A stretch of 30,248 nt of DNA from a virus: IMG/VR virus record IMGVR_UViG_3300029309_000226, positions 1 to 30,248 of that record, one strand, 5' to 3'. The notes beneath the pieces are model-generated. The model was given only the letters and a program-made list of their open reading frames with translations, made no database searches and had not been told where the DNA came from. The position numbers and the translations under genes were made by a program. Positions 1-30,248 of this stretch are shown piece after piece; the stretch's first letter is position 1, and every line of letters begins with the position of its first letter.

Positions 1-100
1 AGATATCAGGCTTGTGTACGTGCAGGTATAGTTGAAATACCTATTTATAAATACACAAGAGAAGAACACGAGAAGTCAGGACAGAAAAAACCTTATGAAT
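1..100. repeat. Terminal direct repeat, left copy (contig circularity overlap)
   Basis: Bases 1-98 are identical to 30149-30246. The next position differs (A at 99, G at 30247) and the one after matches again. An overlap of this size that keeps the ParB reading frame intact is the signature of a circular or circularly permuted genome assembled past its own end. It is not a biological terminal repeat flanked by unique ends. Unique length is about 30,148 bp. Confidence 0.9.
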
Positions 101-453
101 TAGTATGTGATGAAATAGTTATCAAAGACAATAGCAATTTTGGTGAATGGGATTGGGATGTACTAGCAAATGAGTGGAATATAGACAAGCTGAAACATTG
201 GGGACTGAATATACCAAAGTGGGATGATGATTCTTTTGATACTGCTATAGAAGATACTGGTATGTATGACTATCCTGATGATAGCACTGTATCTGCTAAT
301 GTTAAAATGGTACAACTTTTTCTAAATACAGATACGGAAGCATTACTAAAAAAATATGAACTAGCTTTGAGAGAAGTATACGGCACAGATAATTTGACAG
401 ATACAATATTTAAGGCAATAGAAAACCTATACAATGAATCAGAAAGTAAATGA
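1..453 (+). CDS. ParB/Srx-like domain protein, C-terminal part (gene crosses the contig junction)
   Basis: Reading frame 1 is open from base 1 to the stop at 453 and is the in-frame continuation of the gene that starts at 29975. Joined across the circular junction, the product is about 208 residues. This part carries the end of the ParB fold (the helix after GGNMRYQAC) and an acidic, Trp-rich stretch (GEWDWDVLANEW) typical of phage ParB-like proteins that sit beside DNA-modification genes, then a charged helical tail. Family knowledge: ParB/Srx-fold proteins bind nucleotides (CTP or ATP) and often DNA. The stop overlaps the next gene, a TET/JBP-like dioxygenase, by 20 nt, which indicates translational coupling. 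An internal ATG at 262 is not the real start. The role in modification is inferred from context only; a partitioning role is unlikely without a ParA partner. Confidence 0.8.
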   Translation, partial: RYQACVRAGIVEIPIYKYTREEHEKSGQKKPYELVCDEIVIKDNSNFGEWDWDVLANEWNIDKLKHWGLNIPKWDDDSFDTAIEDTGMYDYPDDSTVSANVKMVQLFLNTDTEALLKKYELALREVYGTDNLTDTIFKAIENLYNESESK

Positions 454-1342
454 ATATAGGGTAAAACCTAGAATGAGTGATGATGATGCAAAAAAATTGC
501 TATCAACATTACTAACAGATAGTGACTACAATAATTTAATCACAACAGATGCAGATATTTATTGTGAAGAAACTGGAGAATTATTAGCTAAGTTTCGTAA
601 AAAAATTATACCTAGTAATATTGCAAAAGACGCTTTTGACAACTTGAAAAGTGCTGCAACACCATCATCTAATAGAATGACGAGTAATGGTGAAAAGAAT
701 GAAAAAGGCAATACATCACAAAACAGAATAAAAACAGATGGTACAAGAAGCAATACAAATAGTGCTGTAGGTGATGCACCAAACTCAGGCATTATTGGTT
801 ATTTTGATAGAAACCCTCGCTTCCCATATTGTAGACAAACTGCATTTAATGAAAAACAATTTGCTAAATTTAAGAAAGCATATCCTATAATCAAATTTGT
901 AGACACAAAATATGCAGAACTAGTACCTGAAAAGTATGCACTGCAAAGAGCACAAGCAGATGCAACAACACAAGATTTTGTAATAAAAGACACTGCATTT
1001 ACAACAGTGACAGTCAATAAGAATTGGCAAACTGCAGTACATACAGACAAAGGTGATTATGAAAAAGGTTTCGGTAATTTAGTTGTATTAAGACAAGGCA
1101 AATATACAGGTGGCTATTTTGTTTTGCCAAAATGGGGTGTAGCATTTGATGTACAAAATTGTGATTTGTTATTAGTAGATGTGCACCAGTTACACGGCAA
1201 TACACCTATACATAATGTTAGTGACGATGCAACACGTGTTAGCTTGGTAATGTATTACAGAAAGAATATGATACATTGTGAAGAAACACAAAAAGAAATA
1301 GAAAGAGCAAAAAGACGTGAACTAGGTACAAGTATAAACTAA
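434..1342 (+). CDS. TET/JBP-family 2-oxoglutarate/Fe(II) DNA base dioxygenase
   Basis: 302 residues. Residues 1-115 are a charged, low-complexity N-terminal region and residues 118-275 the double-stranded beta-helix domain. Visible motifs are H203-T-D205 (metal ligands), the distal His in LHGNTPI (H254), and R268 in a following strand as the likely 2OG-binding Arg. The 51-residue spacing from HxD to distal His, followed by Arg after 14 residues, fits the TET/JBP layout, as does the block FTTVTVNKNWQTAVHTDKGD. Family members hydroxylate the 5-methyl group of T (JBP) or 5mC (TET) in DNA. The gene overlaps the ParB-like gene by 20 nt, and its stop abuts the amidotransferase start (taATG). The phage also encodes a C5-cytosine methyltransferase (27931), so 5mC is a candidate substrate; T is equally possible from sequence alone. 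A later Met at 473 is an alternative start. Confidence 0.82.
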   Translation: MNQKVNEYRVKPRMSDDDAKKLLSTLLTDSDYNNLITTDADIYCEETGELLAKFRKKIIPSNIAKDAFDNLKSAATPSSNRMTSNGEKNEKGNTSQNRIKTDGTRSNTNSAVGDAPNSGIIGYFDRNPRFPYCRQTAFNEKQFAKFKKAYPIIKFVDTKYAELVPEKYALQRAQADATTQDFVIKDTAFTTVTVNKNWQTAVHTDKGDYEKGFGNLVVLRQGKYTGGYFVLPKWGVAFDVQNCDLLLVDVHQLHGNTPIHNVSDDATRVSLVMYYRKNMIHCEETQKEIERAKRRELGTSIN

Positions 1343-1953
1343 TGTGTGGAGTTGTAGGATATAGCAGTACGAAACCAGTAGAACAAGACTACAAAATATT
1401 GTATGATTTGATTATACAAAGTAAAATAAGAGGTCTGCATAGTTTTGGTTATACGTTTTATGATGAAGTTCTAACAACAAAGAAATATCATAATATAGAT
1501 AATATAACATTACCAGCTTCTGCTAATAAAATTATATATCACAATAGATACTCTACAAGTGGTGACTATAAATTACACGAGAACAATCAACCTATAACTA
1601 ACACTGATATGTCGCTTGTTTTCAATGGTGTTATTGATATGCGTACAAAAGAAGAAATGCAAGACTATTACAATATCAAAATGCATACAGATAATGATGG
1701 TGAGATACTATTACATAAGTGTAGTAACAAAGACGATATCAAAGAGTTTGTACAAAACATTTCAGGCTCATTTGCAGGACTTATACTAACAAAACAAGGC
1801 AATATGTATGCAATAAGAAATAACAACAGACCATTGTGGAGAATGTGCATAAACGATTCAGTATTCTATGCATCAACAAAAGATATATTCGAAAGAGTGA
1901 ATGAGGAATACGAACCTGAACAACTTATACCTAATGTGATATATGAAAGTTAG
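1342..1953 (+). CDS. Stand-alone class II (Ntn) glutamine amidotransferase domain
   Basis: 203 residues, essentially only the GATase-2 domain. It begins MCGVVGYSS, so Cys2 becomes the N-terminal nucleophile after Met removal. Further hallmarks are RGLHSFG (residues 33-39), the glutamine-binding block RYSTSGD and ENNQP, the oxyanion NG in FNGVID, a TDNDGE acidic block, GSFAG, and NRPLWR near the end. The family hydrolyses glutamine and passes ammonia to a partner synthase domain. No synthase (asparagine synthetase, GlmS, PurF) or QueC domain is fused here or seen nearby. In this cassette it may amidate a carboxylate on a modified base or its amino-acid donor, which is inference. Class II GATases are known companions of predicted phage base-hypermodification operons. 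It overlaps the next gene by 11 nt. Confidence 0.85.
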   Translation: MCGVVGYSSTKPVEQDYKILYDLIIQSKIRGLHSFGYTFYDEVLTTKKYHNIDNITLPASANKIIYHNRYSTSGDYKLHENNQPITNTDMSLVFNGVIDMRTKEEMQDYYNIKMHTDNDGEILLHKCSNKDDIKEFVQNISGSFAGLILTKQGNMYAIRNNNRPLWRMCINDSVFYASTKDIFERVNEEYEPEQLIPNVIYES

Positions 1954-2347
1954 AGAAGCGACTAAAGAAGATGCAGAATATATCAAGAAACTACATAAAC
2001 AACATAAAAAACATATAGGTGGTTTCAATCTGTACTGGGTTTGGGATAAGTACATAGATGGTACTGCAAAACATAAGTATGTAATTATAGACAATGCAGG
2101 TTTTATGAGGTATGGATATAGCAAGAAATACAGTGCATATGTTTTATACGAAATAGCAGTAGATACTGATTGTAAACAAAAAGGTGTAGGTACTATATTG
2201 TTCAATGAGTTACCGAAACCTACAATGTTAAAGTGTAATACTGATAATGATATAGGCAATGCATTCTATAAAAAAATGGGTATGACGAAAGTAGGTGTAA
2301 CAAGTACAAAAGCTGGTCAAAAACAAAATATATGGTGGAATACATAG
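1943..2347 (+). CDS. GNAT-family N-acetyltransferase
   Basis: 134 residues with the GNAT order: N-terminal strand-helix (MKVREATKEDAEYIKKLHK), beta4 EIAVDTDCKQ, acetyl-CoA pyrophosphate loop QKGVGT (Q-x-x-G-x-G), then the NAFYKKMGM motif B helix-strand. The family acetylates primary amines using acetyl-CoA. It overlaps both neighbours (11 nt upstream, 16 nt downstream), so it is part of the modification operon. A plausible role is acetylating an amine installed on a hypermodified base or its amino-acid donor; this is inferred from position only. It could instead acetylate a host or phage protein. Confidence 0.8.
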   Translation: MKVREATKEDAEYIKKLHKQHKKHIGGFNLYWVWDKYIDGTAKHKYVIIDNAGFMRYGYSKKYSAYVLYEIAVDTDCKQKGVGTILFNELPKPTMLKCNTDNDIGNAFYKKMGMTKVGVTSTKAGQKQNIWWNT

Positions 2348-3204
2348 ACTATCATATACAATCTTCTAATGCTAAAGACATAGACCCATCTAATGATTGT
2401 TTAAAATATGTAGCAGACAGATTTGAGTTGAATATAGAGCAACGCTATTGGCTTGCATTTTTATTTGCAACTTGTTATTCTGCAACGACTGTTTACTACA
2501 TATACAATGAGTTCCCTGATTATGAGAATGTAGATGTAGGTAGATTACAGAGATGGTGGGATAGCAATAGAGATAAAACATTATTTCAAACAGATAGATT
2601 GCGAGTAAAAACACAGGATAGATTTGTAGAAACTTTTGTCAGTTATAGACAACTACTTAATGATATGTCACAGAAAGATTACTATGAATCACTTAAACAA
2701 CCTACAAGACAGAATACATATGACAATTGCTATGACAATTTAATCAATATAAAAAACTTTGGCAGATTTACTATGTTTATATATCTAGAGATGGTTAATG
2801 TACTAACAGATTATCCTTTAGAACCTACTTATTTAGATTTAAAAAATGCAGAGAGTTGTCGTAATGGTCTTGTATATCACTTAGGACACTACGAACTAGA
2901 CACACACGGCAATAATAAGAAACTAAAACCAAAACACTATAACTATCTGCAATACAAATTTACAGAACTGCAAAGACAGATTGAGAAACTAGATATAAAA
3001 CATACAAATATTTGGAATATTGAAACTACATTATGTGCATACAAGAAATACAACAAAGGTAAAAGATATGTAGGTTACTATATAGAAAGACAGAAGAAAG
3101 AAATACTGAAGCTACAAAACAATGTGCAAGATGGTGTAGATTGGTCTGTACTTTGGCAATTTAGAGATGAAACATACGATAAAAAATGGCTAACAGAATT
3201 ATAG
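2332..3204 (+). CDS. Probable amino acid:DNA transferase (alpha-glutamyl/putrescinyl-thymine pyrophosphorylase clade)
   Basis: 290 residues, all-helical in appearance, rich in Tyr, Trp and charged residues. Conserved-looking blocks are DCLKYVADRFELNIEQRYW (about 22-40), YYIYNEFPDYENVD (54-67), RWWDSNRDKTLFQTDRLR (73-90), NIKNFGRFTMFIYLE (about 142-156) and LKNAESCRNGLVYHLG. The GRF and AESCRNG blocks and the overall order match my memory of phage proteins in the aGPT-Pplase/AADT group. In phages such as SP10, phiW-14 and ViI, members of this group replace a phosphorylated 5-hydroxymethyl group on DNA with an amino acid or polyamine. Sitting directly upstream of a P-loop kinase (19-nt overlap) is the expected partnership. 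The assignment rests on recognition, not a search; clade and donor cannot be read from sequence. Confidence 0.62.
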   Translation: MVEYIDYHIQSSNAKDIDPSNDCLKYVADRFELNIEQRYWLAFLFATCYSATTVYYIYNEFPDYENVDVGRLQRWWDSNRDKTLFQTDRLRVKTQDRFVETFVSYRQLLNDMSQKDYYESLKQPTRQNTYDNCYDNLINIKNFGRFTMFIYLEMVNVLTDYPLEPTYLDLKNAESCRNGLVYHLGHYELDTHGNNKKLKPKHYNYLQYKFTELQRQIEKLDIKHTNIWNIETTLCAYKKYNKGKRYVGYYIERQKKEILKLQNNVQDGVDWSVLWQFRDETYDKKWLTEL

Positions 3205-3713
3205 CAATAGGTGGTGAACCAGCAACTGGTAAGACAACGCTGATGAGAAGAATTATCAAACACTATGGTAAATTCAACACATTTAAGTCAGGTCTTGTAC
3301 AAGGTATGTACAATAAAGAAAAACAACTGTATATTATAGGTGTATATGATAGTAGTCTGTTTAGTGGTACAGATAAATTGTCTATGGCAGTACAACCACA
3401 TTTTATAAGAATGATACATAAACAACTGCAAGATGCTACGATTGTATTTGAAGGTGATAGACTATTTAACCAAAGTTTGTTCGATAAAGTAGAGTGTGAA
3501 ATATATGTGCTTAAAGCAGATGAAGAAATAATACACGACAGACATATTGCAAGACAAGATACACAAACTGATAAATTTAAAAAAGCTAAGAAAACTAAAA
3601 TAGAAAACATAGTACAAAATAATGATGTCAATGAGTTTTACAATAATACGCAAGAGCAAAATGACGAGTTATTTGAAGCTATAATAAATACAATAGAAAA
3701 TGGACGAAAGTAG
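3186..3713 (+). CDS. P-loop kinase, probable 5-hydroxymethylpyrimidine DNA kinase
   Basis: 175 residues. Walker A is GEPATGKT (residues 10-17) and a Walker B-like strand is TIVFEGDRL, followed by a charged, Lys-rich C-terminal half. The FEGD motif and small size fit the P-loop kinases that phosphorylate 5-hydroxymethyl-dU in phage DNA, creating the leaving group used by amino acid:DNA transferases. The 19-nt overlap with the transferase gene supports that pairing. Whether the acceptor is hmU or hmC is unknown. Alternatives are a generic nucleoside or deoxynucleoside monophosphate kinase; I see no LID domain typical of those. It overlaps terS by 14 nt, linking DNA modification to packaging. 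Confidence 0.7.
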   Translation: MANRIIAIGGEPATGKTTLMRRIIKHYGKFNTFKSGLVQGMYNKEKQLYIIGVYDSSLFSGTDKLSMAVQPHFIRMIHKQLQDATIVFEGDRLFNQSLFDKVECEIYVLKADEEIIHDRHIARQDTQTDKFKKAKKTKIENIVQNNDVNEFYNNTQEQNDELFEAIINTIENGRK

Positions 3714-4050
3714 ACACATAAAAAAAGAGACAATGTTAGCTGCATTAGAAAGCAGTCTAGGTGTAGTGACAACAGCTTGTAAAAAGACTGGTATACCACG
3801 TAGTACTTACTACAAGTGGCTTAAAGAGGACAGTGATTTTGCAGACAAAGTAAAAGACATAGAGAATGTTAGTTTAGACTTTGCAGAAAGTAAACTATTT
3901 GAGCAGATGCAGGACAACAATACTAGTGCTACAATATTCTATTTAAAAACAAAAGGTCGCAAAAGAGGTTATTGGGAAAAGCAACAATTTGATGTTACAA
4001 CAGATGACGAGCCGATTAAAATTAATATCAATCTAACTGATGACGATTAA
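3700..4050 (+). CDS. terS: Terminase small subunit
   Basis: 116 residues. An N-terminal helix-turn-helix (residues about 10-45: ALESSLGVVTTACKKTG, then PRSTYYKWLKED) of the phBC6A51 homeodomain-like class recognises phage DNA. It is followed by a helical oligomerisation segment and an acidic tail (TDDEPIKININLTDDD) likely to contact TerL. It overlaps the kinase by 14 nt and terL by 11 nt. Its position immediately before terL supports the call. Confidence 0.85.
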   Translation: MDESRHIKKETMLAALESSLGVVTTACKKTGIPRSTYYKWLKEDSDFADKVKDIENVSLDFAESKLFEQMQDNNTSATIFYLKTKGRKRGYWEKQQFDVTTDDEPIKININLTDDD

Positions 4051-5350
4051 TCTTGATTTTACACCTAAACAAAGCACTGCAATCAAATATCTGTTTGATA
4101 ACACGAATAGTGAAATACTCTTTGGTGGTGGTGCAGGTGGTGGTAAGTCATATATAGGTTGTGCTTGGATAATATTGTCTTGTATAAAATATAAAGGTAT
4201 AAGATGTTTAATAGGACGTAGTAAACTTGACAACTTAAAGAAAACAACACTAAATACTTTCTTTGAAATATGTTCGCAATGGGGATTGAAGTCAAACAAA
4301 GATTATGTGTTCAATGCAGGTAGTAATATCATAACATTTTATAACGGCAGTGAGGTATTGTTGAAAGACTTGTTTCACTATCCATCAGATGCTAACTATG
4401 ATAGTTTAGGTTCATTAGAATTGACAATGGCTTTTGTAGATGAGTGTAATCAAATAACACAGAAAGCTAAAGCAATATTATCGTCAAGAATAAGATACAA
4501 GTTAGATGAGTACAATCTTACACCTAAACTATTTATGAGTTGCAACCCAGCTAAGAATTGGGTGTATAACGAGTTCTATTTGCCACACAAACAAGACAAG
4601 TTACCTAAATACAGAAAGTTCATACAAGCACTTGCAAGTGATAACGTACATATATCTAAACACTATGAGCAACAATTAAGTAAGCTAGATGAAATAAGTA
4701 AACAAAGGTTACTTTATGGCAATTGGGAGTATGATGATAGCGAAGACAAGCTAATAAACTTTGATGCTATACTTAATATGTTTGACAATACAAGCATAGA
4801 AGCTGGTGACAAATATATTAGTTGTGATGTAGCTAGATTTGGTAAAGACAAGACTGTAATTATATACTGGAATGGTTTAAGAGCCGAAAGAATAAAAGTA
4901 TATAGCAGCAATACAATAACTGAAGCAGCAAAAACAATACAAGAAATACAAAGACAAGAATTAGTGCCATTAAAAAATATAATAGTTGATGATGACGGAA
5001 TAGGTGGTGGTGTTCGTGATATACTAAGGTGTAAAGGGTTTGTGAATAATGCAACACCTATAAATAAAGAAAATTATCAAAACTTAAAGACACAATGCTA
5101 TTACAAACTAGCAGAGTATATAAACGCATCAAAAATATATTTGCATACAAACGATACTAGCATAAAAGAAGATTTAACAAAAGAGCTAGAACAAGTTAGA
5201 CGTGATAAAATAGATAGAGATACAAAATTAGCTATATTGCCAAAAGAAAAAGTAAAACAAATTATAGGACGTTCACCTGACTATTCTGATGCATTGATGA
5301 TGAGAATGTACTATGAATTAAGACCGCAAGGTGTATATTATGTGCAATAA
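4040..5350 (+). CDS. terL: Terminase large subunit (packaging ATPase and nuclease)
   Basis: 436 residues, usual length for TerL. ATPase: Walker A GGGAGGGKS (29-37) and Walker B with the catalytic pair in AFVDECNQ (D134, E135), followed by a coupling motif around MSCNP (166-170). RNase H-like nuclease: D263 in SCDVARFG, D317-D319 in IVDDDGIGG, and D414/D417 in SPDYSDALM. All motor and nuclease residues are present, so the protein should be functional. The terminase translocates DNA into the prohead and cuts it. A stem-loop follows the stop (5358-5377). Confidence 0.96.
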   Translation: MTINLDFTPKQSTAIKYLFDNTNSEILFGGGAGGGKSYIGCAWIILSCIKYKGIRCLIGRSKLDNLKKTTLNTFFEICSQWGLKSNKDYVFNAGSNIITFYNGSEVLLKDLFHYPSDANYDSLGSLELTMAFVDECNQITQKAKAILSSRIRYKLDEYNLTPKLFMSCNPAKNWVYNEFYLPHKQDKLPKYRKFIQALASDNVHISKHYEQQLSKLDEISKQRLLYGNWEYDDSEDKLINFDAILNMFDNTSIEAGDKYISCDVARFGKDKTVIIYWNGLRAERIKVYSSNTITEAAKTIQEIQRQELVPLKNIIVDDDGIGGGVRDILRCKGFVNNATPINKENYQNLKTQCYYKLAEYINASKIYLHTNDTSIKEDLTKELEQVRRDKIDRDTKLAILPKEKVKQIIGRSPDYSDALMMRMYYELRPQGVYYVQ

Positions 5351-27567: not shown

Positions 27568-27934
27568 ACTGGTAAAGAAACTAGATGCAGTATATAGTAA
27601 ATATATACGTAACCTATATGCCAATGATAATGGATATGTAGAATGCTATACTTGTGGTGTACATAAGCACGTAAAAGAAATGCAGTGTGGTCACTTCCAA
27701 AGTCGTAGACATTATGCGACTAGGTGGCACGAAAACAATACAAGACCACAGTGTGTAAAGTGTAATATGTACTCACAAGGTGAGCAATATATATTTGGCG
27801 AGAAACTAAAGTCTGAAATTGGCGAAGTTATGTTTGAAGAATTAATTATAGAATCTAAAAAAACAAGCAAATATACATTAGCAGATTATAAGTATTTAAT
27901 AGATTACTATACCAAGAAATTAAAAGATTTATGA
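27554..27934 (+). CDS. ninG: NinG-like recombination endonuclease
   Basis: 126 residues from a TTG start (27554); no in-frame ATG is better placed. Zn/HNH-like pattern: CYTCG (C32, C35), QCGHFQSRRHYATRWHENN and RPQCVKCN, matching lambda NinG/Rap, which resolves recombination junctions. Downstream helices YTLADYKYLIDYYTKKL close the fold. Positioned between HTH and methyltransferase genes; overlaps the latter by 4 nt (ATGA). Confidence 0.82.
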   Translation: MSKSKLVKKLDAVYSKYIRNLYANDNGYVECYTCGVHKHVKEMQCGHFQSRRHYATRWHENNTRPQCVKCNMYSQGEQYIFGEKLKSEIGEVMFEELIIESKKTSKYTLADYKYLIDYYTKKLKDL

Positions 27935-28575
27935 AAATATTAAATTTATATGCTTGTTTAGGTGGCAATAGATACAAATGGTCTGATGTACACGATATAA
28001 CAGCAGTTGAATTAGATGCAGAAATAGCTAAACTATATCAAGAAAGATTCCCTAATGATACTGTTATAGTTGGTGATGCACATCAATATTTATTAGACAA
28101 TTATAAAGATTATGATTTTATATGGAGTTCACCACCTTGTCCTACACACTCATCTTTTCAAGTATCTATGAAAAGTGTAAGGAAAATGAAATATCCTGAT
28201 ATGAAGTTGTATCAAGAAATAATTTTTTTACAACATTTTTTCGATGGTAAATATTGTGTAGAAAATGTTATACCATATTATGAACCATTAATACCAGCTT
28301 TCAAAAGAGGTAGACATTTATTTTGGACAAATTTCAATTTGCCAAATGTATTAAGCAAAAGAAAATCACCTAGTATGTGTAATAAAAAATCAGAAGTAGA
28401 TGCATTAATAGAATTTCACGAATACGATTTTAGAAAATATAAAGGAACATATCATAATATGAGTTTAGCAAGAAACTTAGTAGATTACGAAGCTGGTAAA
28501 ACTATATTAGATACTGCTATGGGTATAATAAATAAGCAAGATAACAAACAAACCGACTTGTTTTATACACAATGA
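27931..28575 (+). CDS. DNA (cytosine-5) methyltransferase, short form
   Basis: 214 residues. Motif I: LNLYACLGG (4-12). Motif IV: SSPPCPTHS with catalytic C70. Motif VI: ENV (111-113). SAM acidic residue E27 (AVELD). The usual target-recognition domain and motif VIII QRR are reduced; the C-terminus (MSLARNLVDYEAGKTILDTAMGI) replaces motif X. Short phage C5 methylases of this type are common in Bacteroidetes phages. It makes 5mC in DNA, protecting against restriction and possibly feeding the TET/JBP dioxygenase at 434, about 2 kb downstream from the ParB start around the circle. Sequence specificity cannot be read. Confidence 0.82.
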   Translation: MKILNLYACLGGNRYKWSDVHDITAVELDAEIAKLYQERFPNDTVIVGDAHQYLLDNYKDYDFIWSSPPCPTHSSFQVSMKSVRKMKYPDMKLYQEIIFLQHFFDGKYCVENVIPYYEPLIPAFKRGRHLFWTNFNLPNVLSKRKSPSMCNKKSEVDALIEFHEYDFRKYKGTYHNMSLARNLVDYEAGKTILDTAMGIINKQDNKQTDLFYTQ

Positions 28576-29974: not shown

Positions 29975-30248
29975 ATGAAGATTACTAAAGTAAAAAGAAG
30001 TGAGATTAAAATAAATCCTAAAAACCCTAGAATTATTAAAGACCATAAGTTCGACAAGCTAATAAAAAGTGTAGAAGAACTACCTGAAATGTTAGAGATG
30101 CGACCAATAATCGTTGATGAAGATATGGTAATATTAGGTGGTAATATGAGATATCAGGCTTGTGTACGTGCAGGTATAGTTGAAATACCTATTTATAAAT
30201 ACACAAGAGAAGAACACGAGAAGTCAGGACAGAAAAAACCTTATGAGT
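29975..30248 (+). CDS. ParB/Srx-like domain protein, N-terminal part (continues at base 1)
   Basis: Starts at ATG 29975 (MKITKVKRSEIKINPKNPR). The ParB boxes are visible: NPKNPR (residues 14-19) and LGGNMRYQAC (about 53-62), equivalent to the nucleotide-binding G-x-x-R motif. It is open to the window end; residue 59 corresponds to base 1, and the frame continues without interruption to 453, total about 208 residues. It heads the modification cassette. Confidence 0.8.
   Translation, partial: MKITKVKRSEIKINPKNPRIIKDHKFDKLIKSVEELPEMLEMRPIIVDEDMVILGGNMRYQACVRAGIVEIPIYKYTREEHEKSGQKKPYE
30149..30248. repeat. Terminal direct repeat, right copy
   Basis: Identical to 1-98 across 30149-30246, with G at 30247 versus A at 99. 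The mismatch is synonymous in the ParB frame (GAG versus GAA, Glu) and lies next to the end of the contig, where a read error or population variant is likely. Confidence 0.9.

Follow-up and report, generated by a model that had tools for sequence, protein, structure and literature searches.

Which base would a phage modify, and by what route, when it carries a dioxygenase, a glutaminase, an acetyltransferase, an amino acid:DNA transferase (ADDT) and a kinase immediately ahead of its terminase? The question is raised by IMG/VR record IMGVR_UViG_3300029309_000226, whose 30,248 nucleotides, analysed over their full length, we call the window. About 99 bases are common to both window ends, indicating a complete phage genome of ~30.15 kb. 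All window genes given below lie on the plus strand. Five open reading frames (ORFs) overlap or abut in the order TET-GAT-GNAT-ADDT1-kinase, between a ParB-like gene and the terminase genes TerS and TerL. A preliminary description, made from the letters of the sequence, had recognized this overlapping run and its continuity with the ParB-like gene across the junction; the five ORFs are indeed where it placed them, and the ParB-like ORF extends over the circular join. Our reading, held with moderate confidence, is that TET, kinase and ADDT1 carry out a post-replicative hypermodification of thymine in the phage's own DNA.

The cassette opens with a TET/JBP-type 2-oxoglutarate- and iron-dependent dioxygenase (434..1342, 302 aa; PF12851, 2.9e-29), a predicted hydroxylase of 5-methylpyrimidine in DNA. 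Across 26 diverse phage homologues H203, D205, H254 and R268 are invariant, i.e. the HxD...H iron ligands and the 2-oxoglutarate-binding arginine, and a profile of the phage homologues matches TET2, Naegleria Tet and CcTet in the PDB. Profiles were needed here, as single-sequence phmmer searches of the PDB gave no useful match for TET, ADDT or kinase.

ADDT1 (2332..3204, 290 aa) matches the ADDT family PF18724 at 5.5e-18, scoring 66 bits against a curated cut-off of 26.2. Its AlphaFold2 model (pLDDT 95.5) has only two specific fold matches in the PDB, 8z2m and 8z2n (TM 0.60-0.64, probability 1.00), which are the 5-phosphomethyl-deoxyuridine (5-PmdU) glycinyltransferase of phage PaMx11. The sequence profile finds in the PDB 25qc (5.3e-9, 'amino acid:DNA transferase domain-containing protein') and 8z2m (8.8e-5). 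The preliminary description had staked its prediction on membership of this product in the ADDT group, and both profile and predicted fold place it there. UniProt entry A0A516LCQ1, found through BFVD, is of equal length and 100% identical to ADDT1, so that this protein or an identical one had previously been deposited.

Between these two lies GAT (1342..1953, 203 aa; GATase_7, 1e-9), a lone class II glutamine amidotransferase domain. At least 97% of the 122 ORFs homologous to it, some of which represent the same locus twice, retain C2, R69, N95-G96 and D119, which we take to be the glutaminase residues of the family. Its nearest NCBIfam models are PurF (4.8e-14, the best) and GlmS (2.3e-10), matched only over their N-terminal part, and the 203 aa contain no attached synthase or acceptor domain of the kind found in PurF, GlmS and AsnB. 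The kinase, the one ATP-using protein of the cassette that could partner GAT, occurs just as regularly in GAT-less cassettes. Amidation of the adduct, as first proposed, does not follow, since GAT is a glutaminase domain and no synthetase goes with it. Membership of GAT in the LUZ24-like GATase group was considered and rejected, those being proteins of 510-531 aa in an amidoligase/ATP-grasp cluster. Scanning viral contigs with one GAT sequence returned near-identical copies only. The GNAT acetyltransferase (1943..2347, 134 aa; Acetyltransf_7, 1.2e-5, just under the cut-off) is an optional cassette member; the GNAT profile matches PaMx11 gp48, and the window-type GNAT is homologous to gp48 (phmmer 2e-7).

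The P-loop kinase (3186..3713, 175 aa), a predicted DNA 5-hydroxymethylpyrimidine kinase, bears a GEPATGKT Walker A motif. Its own best Pfam matches are weak (AAA_33, 8.8e-5; Ploopntkinase3, 0.0037), and homologues from Microbacterium phage Matzah and from a Prevotella metagenome-assembled genome (MAG) exceed the cut-off, Ploopntkinase3 matching kinase homologues at 7.9e-22 and 3.5e-9. The confident model (pLDDT 94.0) shows a generic fold like that of nucleoside monophosphate (NMP) kinases (TM ~0.5), so the substrate is unreadable from the structure; neither PF18748 nor PF18723, the Pfam domains of the 5-hydroxymethyl-deoxyuridine DNA kinases (HMUDK), matches the window kinase or ADDT1. Of what had been said of this protein, the P-loop stands; the fold is like that of an ordinary NMP kinase. 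A role as DNA hydroxymethyl-base kinase is therefore suggested by genomic context and the Ploopntkinase3 family link. The name 'terminase small subunit' attached to this family by PHROG 800, and in the record of Caulobacter phage Cr30, was rejected, as a separate TerS follows. The other family assignments of the preliminary description (TET/JBP dioxygenase, class II amidotransferase, GNAT) likewise have their Pfam matches.

Conservation of the gene set in related phages, envisaged from the start, is evident: it is kept in order across IMG/VR relatives. Scans of viral contigs yielded at least 111 loci for ADDT1 and 76 for TET, many of them common to both. Because the loci with ADDT relatives are so numerous and the same gene order recurs among them, the cassette is far beyond chance. 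Co-occurrence was scored in 56 non-redundant ADDT1 loci with sufficient flank; all 56 have TET and GAT, 40 have GNAT, and 49 have a member of the kinase family. The remaining seven have the order ParB-GAT-ADDT-TET with a divergent P-loop protein in the slot, which retains the Walker motif in most of those checked. GAT was found in 0 of 9 loci with other ADDT types, against 56/56 with ADDT1 (p = 3e-11, indicative only because the sequences are related). The searches made of the isolate collection produced no record with the complete cassette.

A pathway can be proposed from these families. The TET/JBP enzyme would hydroxylate the 5-methyl group on the polymer; the kinase, judging from homology and context, would phosphorylate the hydroxymethyl group to give a 5-phosphomethyl-pyrimidine; an amine would then replace the phosphate through ADDT1, whose enzyme class is shown by profile and fold. 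GNAT could optionally acetylate the resulting amine. The least certain step is the choice of nucleophile. Since GAT, a glutaminase on its own, is found with every ADDT1 and with none of the other ADDT types, we propose that ammonia freed from glutamine by GAT might serve, which would yield 5-aminomethyl-deoxyuridine, in parallel to PurF, where ammonia displaces pyrophosphate. A lone glutaminase delivers ammonia only to an activated carbon, and a 5-phosphomethyl base would be one, hence the suggestion that GAT feeds ADDT1; we offer this ammonia step, by analogy, as tentative. The modification would be set on replicated DNA, near packaging. Such DNA would be expected to block restriction enzymes, and the modification might also mark DNA for packaging.

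That oxidation happens on the polymer is argued by what these genomes do not encode. No match to thymidylate synthase (PF00303) exceeded the cut-off in 37 TET-positive records, among which are this genome and 34 other viral records, nor in any of the 7 complete cassette genomes. Given this absence of a thymidylate-synthase-like hydroxymethylase, the hydroxymethyl group must be made by the dioxygenase on DNA, as the preliminary description had supposed. It does not settle the base, and here that description had overlooked a short C5-cytosine DNA methyltransferase (27931..28575, 214 aa; PF00145, 7.7e-7) which opens a route through 5-methylcytosine. The phage methyltransferase or the host would make 5-methylcytosine, TET would convert it to 5-hydroxymethylcytosine, and the kinase, ADDT1 with GAT, and GNAT would decorate it. 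Several points besides the presence of this gene in a complete genome speak for cytosine. The TET residue three past HxD, the one that reads the base 4-position in TET2 and NgTET1, is Asp (D208), compatible with cytosine; the PDB matches of the TET profile include no JBP catalytic-domain structure against which the active site could be read as thymine- or cytosine-specific. Characterised phage TETs reportedly act on 5-methylcytosine (Burke et al. 2021). Methylophilales phage Melnitz-3 (L282:4010-8090) clusters an HhaI-like C5-methyltransferase, TET, an unknown 427-aa protein and a relative of the kinase, perhaps a cytosine version of the first steps. Phage TETs have also been described as acting on 5-methylcytosine alongside C5-methyltransferases (PMC12730594). 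Yet the methyltransferase does not track TET: PF00145, a rather coarse probe for enzymes this short in a set where many records are fragments, matches 4/40 TET-positive records and 6/24 TET-negative relatives (p = 0.16, the direction being opposite to linkage). Among the seven complete cassette genomes, recognized as such by their overlapping ends, only two (G000 and G011) have the enzyme, and the families listed for the other five (Pfam, most non-structural ORFs, lists ending at 25 families) include none. The window gene adjoins a NinG/HNH gene, and its orthologue occupies the same neighbourhood in a TET-less relative (L188); we judge it a possible substrate maker unlinked to the cassette. 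Across eight annotated isolate records with TET, a C5-methyltransferase occurs only in Melnitz and a clear thymidylate synthase only in Cr30. The solved ADDT relative, moreover, acts on deoxyuridine. 5-Methylcytosine as an obligate substrate is weakened by the lack of linkage; possible methylation by the host, divergent methyltransferases and D208 keep cytosine as an alternative to which we give a minor share of our belief. Because the methyltransferase does not follow TET and thymidylate synthase is absent from the complete cassette genomes, the simplest and most likely reading, short of proof, is that TET oxidises thymine within the polymer.

Even if the base is thymine, ADDT1 may take an amino acid as its nucleophile instead of ammonia, since in its motifs (FGR and ESxRNG, common to ADDT1 and the CBA120/ViI ADDTs and absent from PaMx11 gp46) it is closer to the former than to the PaMx11 enzyme; Ackermannviridae homologues are also among its closest in isolates. 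Serine, the amino acid inferred for ViI-type phages, would be one candidate; GAT would then act later on the adduct, with a side-chain amide as one possible target. Against this, decarboxylase and flavoenzyme are both missing from the cassette, and GAT has no ATP-using synthetase partner for amidation, the kinase being kept equally where GAT is absent. As nucleophiles for ADDT1 the two seem about equally plausible; the full version, with GAT acting on an amino acid adduct, overlaps with our own thymine pathway and is a serious contender, though we would not bet on it. That the genes modify tRNA, protein or a surface sugar and sit beside the terminase by chance seems very improbable: GATase and GNAT domains are generic and the kinase fold is ordinary, but TET and ADDT belong to families of enzymes that act on DNA bases, and the ParB-terminase slot repeatedly holds TET together with TAGT, ADDT or flavoenzyme modules.

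The closest known counterpart is the PaMx11 cluster, comprising gp46 (the glycinyltransferase PUGT), gp47 (a flavin adenine dinucleotide enzyme), gp48 (GNAT), gp49 (kinase), gp50 (a helical domain, matching HMUDK domain PF18723) and gp51 (thymidylate synthase-like). The window cassette shares with it the ADDT fold, the E..C motif, the GNAT homologue and an adjoining P-loop kinase, and differs in having TET for the thymidylate synthase-like hydroxymethylase, GAT for the flavoenzyme and a different ADDT subtype; the HMUDK helical domain was not found in it. Window relatives carry a gp46-/gp47-like pair in the equivalent slot. Since GNAT, the shorter ADDT2 of relatives and its flavoprotein neighbour are homologous to gp48, gp46 (phmmer 1.9e-10) and gp47 (4.5e-9), respectively, the cassette looks, at the level of sequence, like the PaMx11 pathway with TET and GAT as replacements. 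The preliminary description knew of no account of an amino-acid-type adduct that is amidated and/or acetylated, which overstates the novelty: acetylated and amino-acid-derived thymidines are known, Wen et al. reportedly having found an acetylated product, and PaMx11 has a homologous GNAT.

In Ackermannviridae (ViI/CBA120) the ADDT relative is ~27% identical over 77% of the query and has the FGR and ESxRNG motifs. We know of no TET or lone glutaminase in that system. Its phages use 5-hydroxymethyl-deoxyuridine made before replication (PMC6449724), unlike the window route, which would act on the polymer. The phage clusters of TET, C5-methyltransferase and glycosyltransferase (PMC12730594) resemble the window in that TET adjoins ParB and terminase, and some relatives and Nonlabens phage P12024L pair TET with TAGT; they differ in that the window has kinase, ADDT, GAT and GNAT, and its C5-methyltransferase is inconsistent among relatives. 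Pfam finds no glycosyltransferase in the window cassette; TAGT occurs only in relatives and in P12024L. Such clusters are said to have been treated by Burke et al. (2021), and Iyer et al. (2013) are said to have predicted the linkage of phage TET/JBP enzymes with base-modifying transferases and kinases, including ADDT-kinase neighbourhoods. Kinetoplastid JBP1/2 (base J) would be a precedent for thymine hydroxylation on the polymer; JBP feeds a glucosyltransferase, whereas thymine activity of the window TET is a prediction. Precedents thus existed for TET-linked phage clusters and for thymidines that are acetylated or amino-acid-derived; new are the glutaminase coupling, the lack of a consistent source of 5-hydroxymethyl precursor, and the gut phages described below with a radical S-adenosylmethionine (SAM) gene instead of TET.

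Among close relatives the ParB-TerS interval is without cassette genes or filled by other modules. TET and kinase are constant across relatives, and the genes in the middle are exchanged. In some, TET is accompanied by a TAGT glycosyltransferase, recognized by Pfam in L139 and from sequence similarity in L147 and L118. In others, ADDT2 and the flavoprotein-like gene stand in for GAT-GNAT-ADDT1 between TET and kinase (L090:5371-6872, L112:10887-12385 and others), and L145 and L208 have kinase and TET alone.

When genomes were scanned, two MAGs, one of Phocaeicola and one of Prevotella, proved to carry the GAT-ADDT1 pair with TET not nearby. There the pair is followed by kinase, GNAT and a protein of the radical-SAM family (Pfam 4.3e-7 and 2.6e-6), with SAM synthetase in one. 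Gut Bacteroidota phages (L342:5869-11115, L340:5511-11162, L362:3586-9245) have the order ParB-GAT-ADDT1-kinase-GNAT-radical SAM, some with SAM synthetase, and none has TET. A scan that took the radical-SAM protein as query returned 59 viral loci, usually with a shorter ADDT3 in place of GAT-ADDT1; many rumen and gut relatives have ADDT3 without GAT. GAT again goes only with ADDT1, in 4/4 radical-SAM loci that have ADDT1 against 0/23 that do not, and a single MAG contributes two of the four. The search for TET in 25 radical-SAM records gave no match, but none in the control genomes either; thymidylate synthase is absent from the 24 viral ones, with a single match in the Prevotella MAG. Possibly the radical-SAM enzyme replaces TET, forming an oxygen-free counterpart of the TET cassette; we put this as a hypothesis only, because enzymes of this class also serve as isomerases at late stages of known pathways. 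The most specific scheme, which we consider unlikely as a whole, joins a thymine-hydroxylating phage TET as the counterpart of JBP, ammonia passed directly from GAT to the ADDT, post-replicative 5-acetamidomethyl-deoxyuridine as the product, and a radical-SAM enzyme activating the thymine methyl group in phages whose hosts are anaerobic gut bacteria living without oxygen.

If the pathway is right, thymine hypermodification need not begin from a modified nucleotide pool, as it does in known kits, which make the first intermediate before replication, and this would explain DNA armour in 30-kb phages without nucleotide-metabolism genes. It would also provide a phage thymine hydroxylase, possibly of the type ancestral to JBP, and a DNA transferase that works with ammonia; the plug-in modules gathered in a single genomic slot would be of use for labelling DNA enzymatically. 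Through the radical-SAM gut variants an oxygen-independent version becomes directly testable.

The flanks of the cassette complete the map. The ParB-like gene runs from its 5' part (29975..30247; ParB_N, 2.2e-4, below the cut-off) across the join into its 3' part (1..453), whose open 5' end is continuous with it, for 208 aa once joined. TerS (3700..4050; PHROG 309, 2.1e-9) delimits the modification slot on its 3' side, and TerL (4040..5350; Terminase_6N, 2.1e-8) follows. TerL shares 55% identity with its counterpart in Flavobacterium phage 11b, which points to a marine flavobacterium as the probable host.

Some further arrangements may be listed. (i) P12024L, a cultured flavophage, has TET, a TAGT glycosyltransferase and a DNA methylase in a row (L131:16409-18674); the last, annotated 'DNA methyltransferase', was rejected as a C5 enzyme, being of N6/N4 type. 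(ii) In isolate Cr30 (L279) TET is annotated 'SNF2 DNA repair protein', an ADDT scores 180 bits, thymidylate synthase lies elsewhere, and the kinase relative is the one called 'terminase small subunit' (NC_025422). (iii) The Matzah genome starts with ParB-TET-Ploopntkinase3-terminase (L281:1-2179), its kinase annotated as a HicA-like toxin. (iv) A tandem pair of TET genes precedes an unknown 328-aa protein, ADDT and kinase at L123:504-2467. (v) Three complete cassette-bearing relatives (G005, G013 and G018) encode two Dam-type N6-adenine methyltransferases, a second layer of DNA modification.

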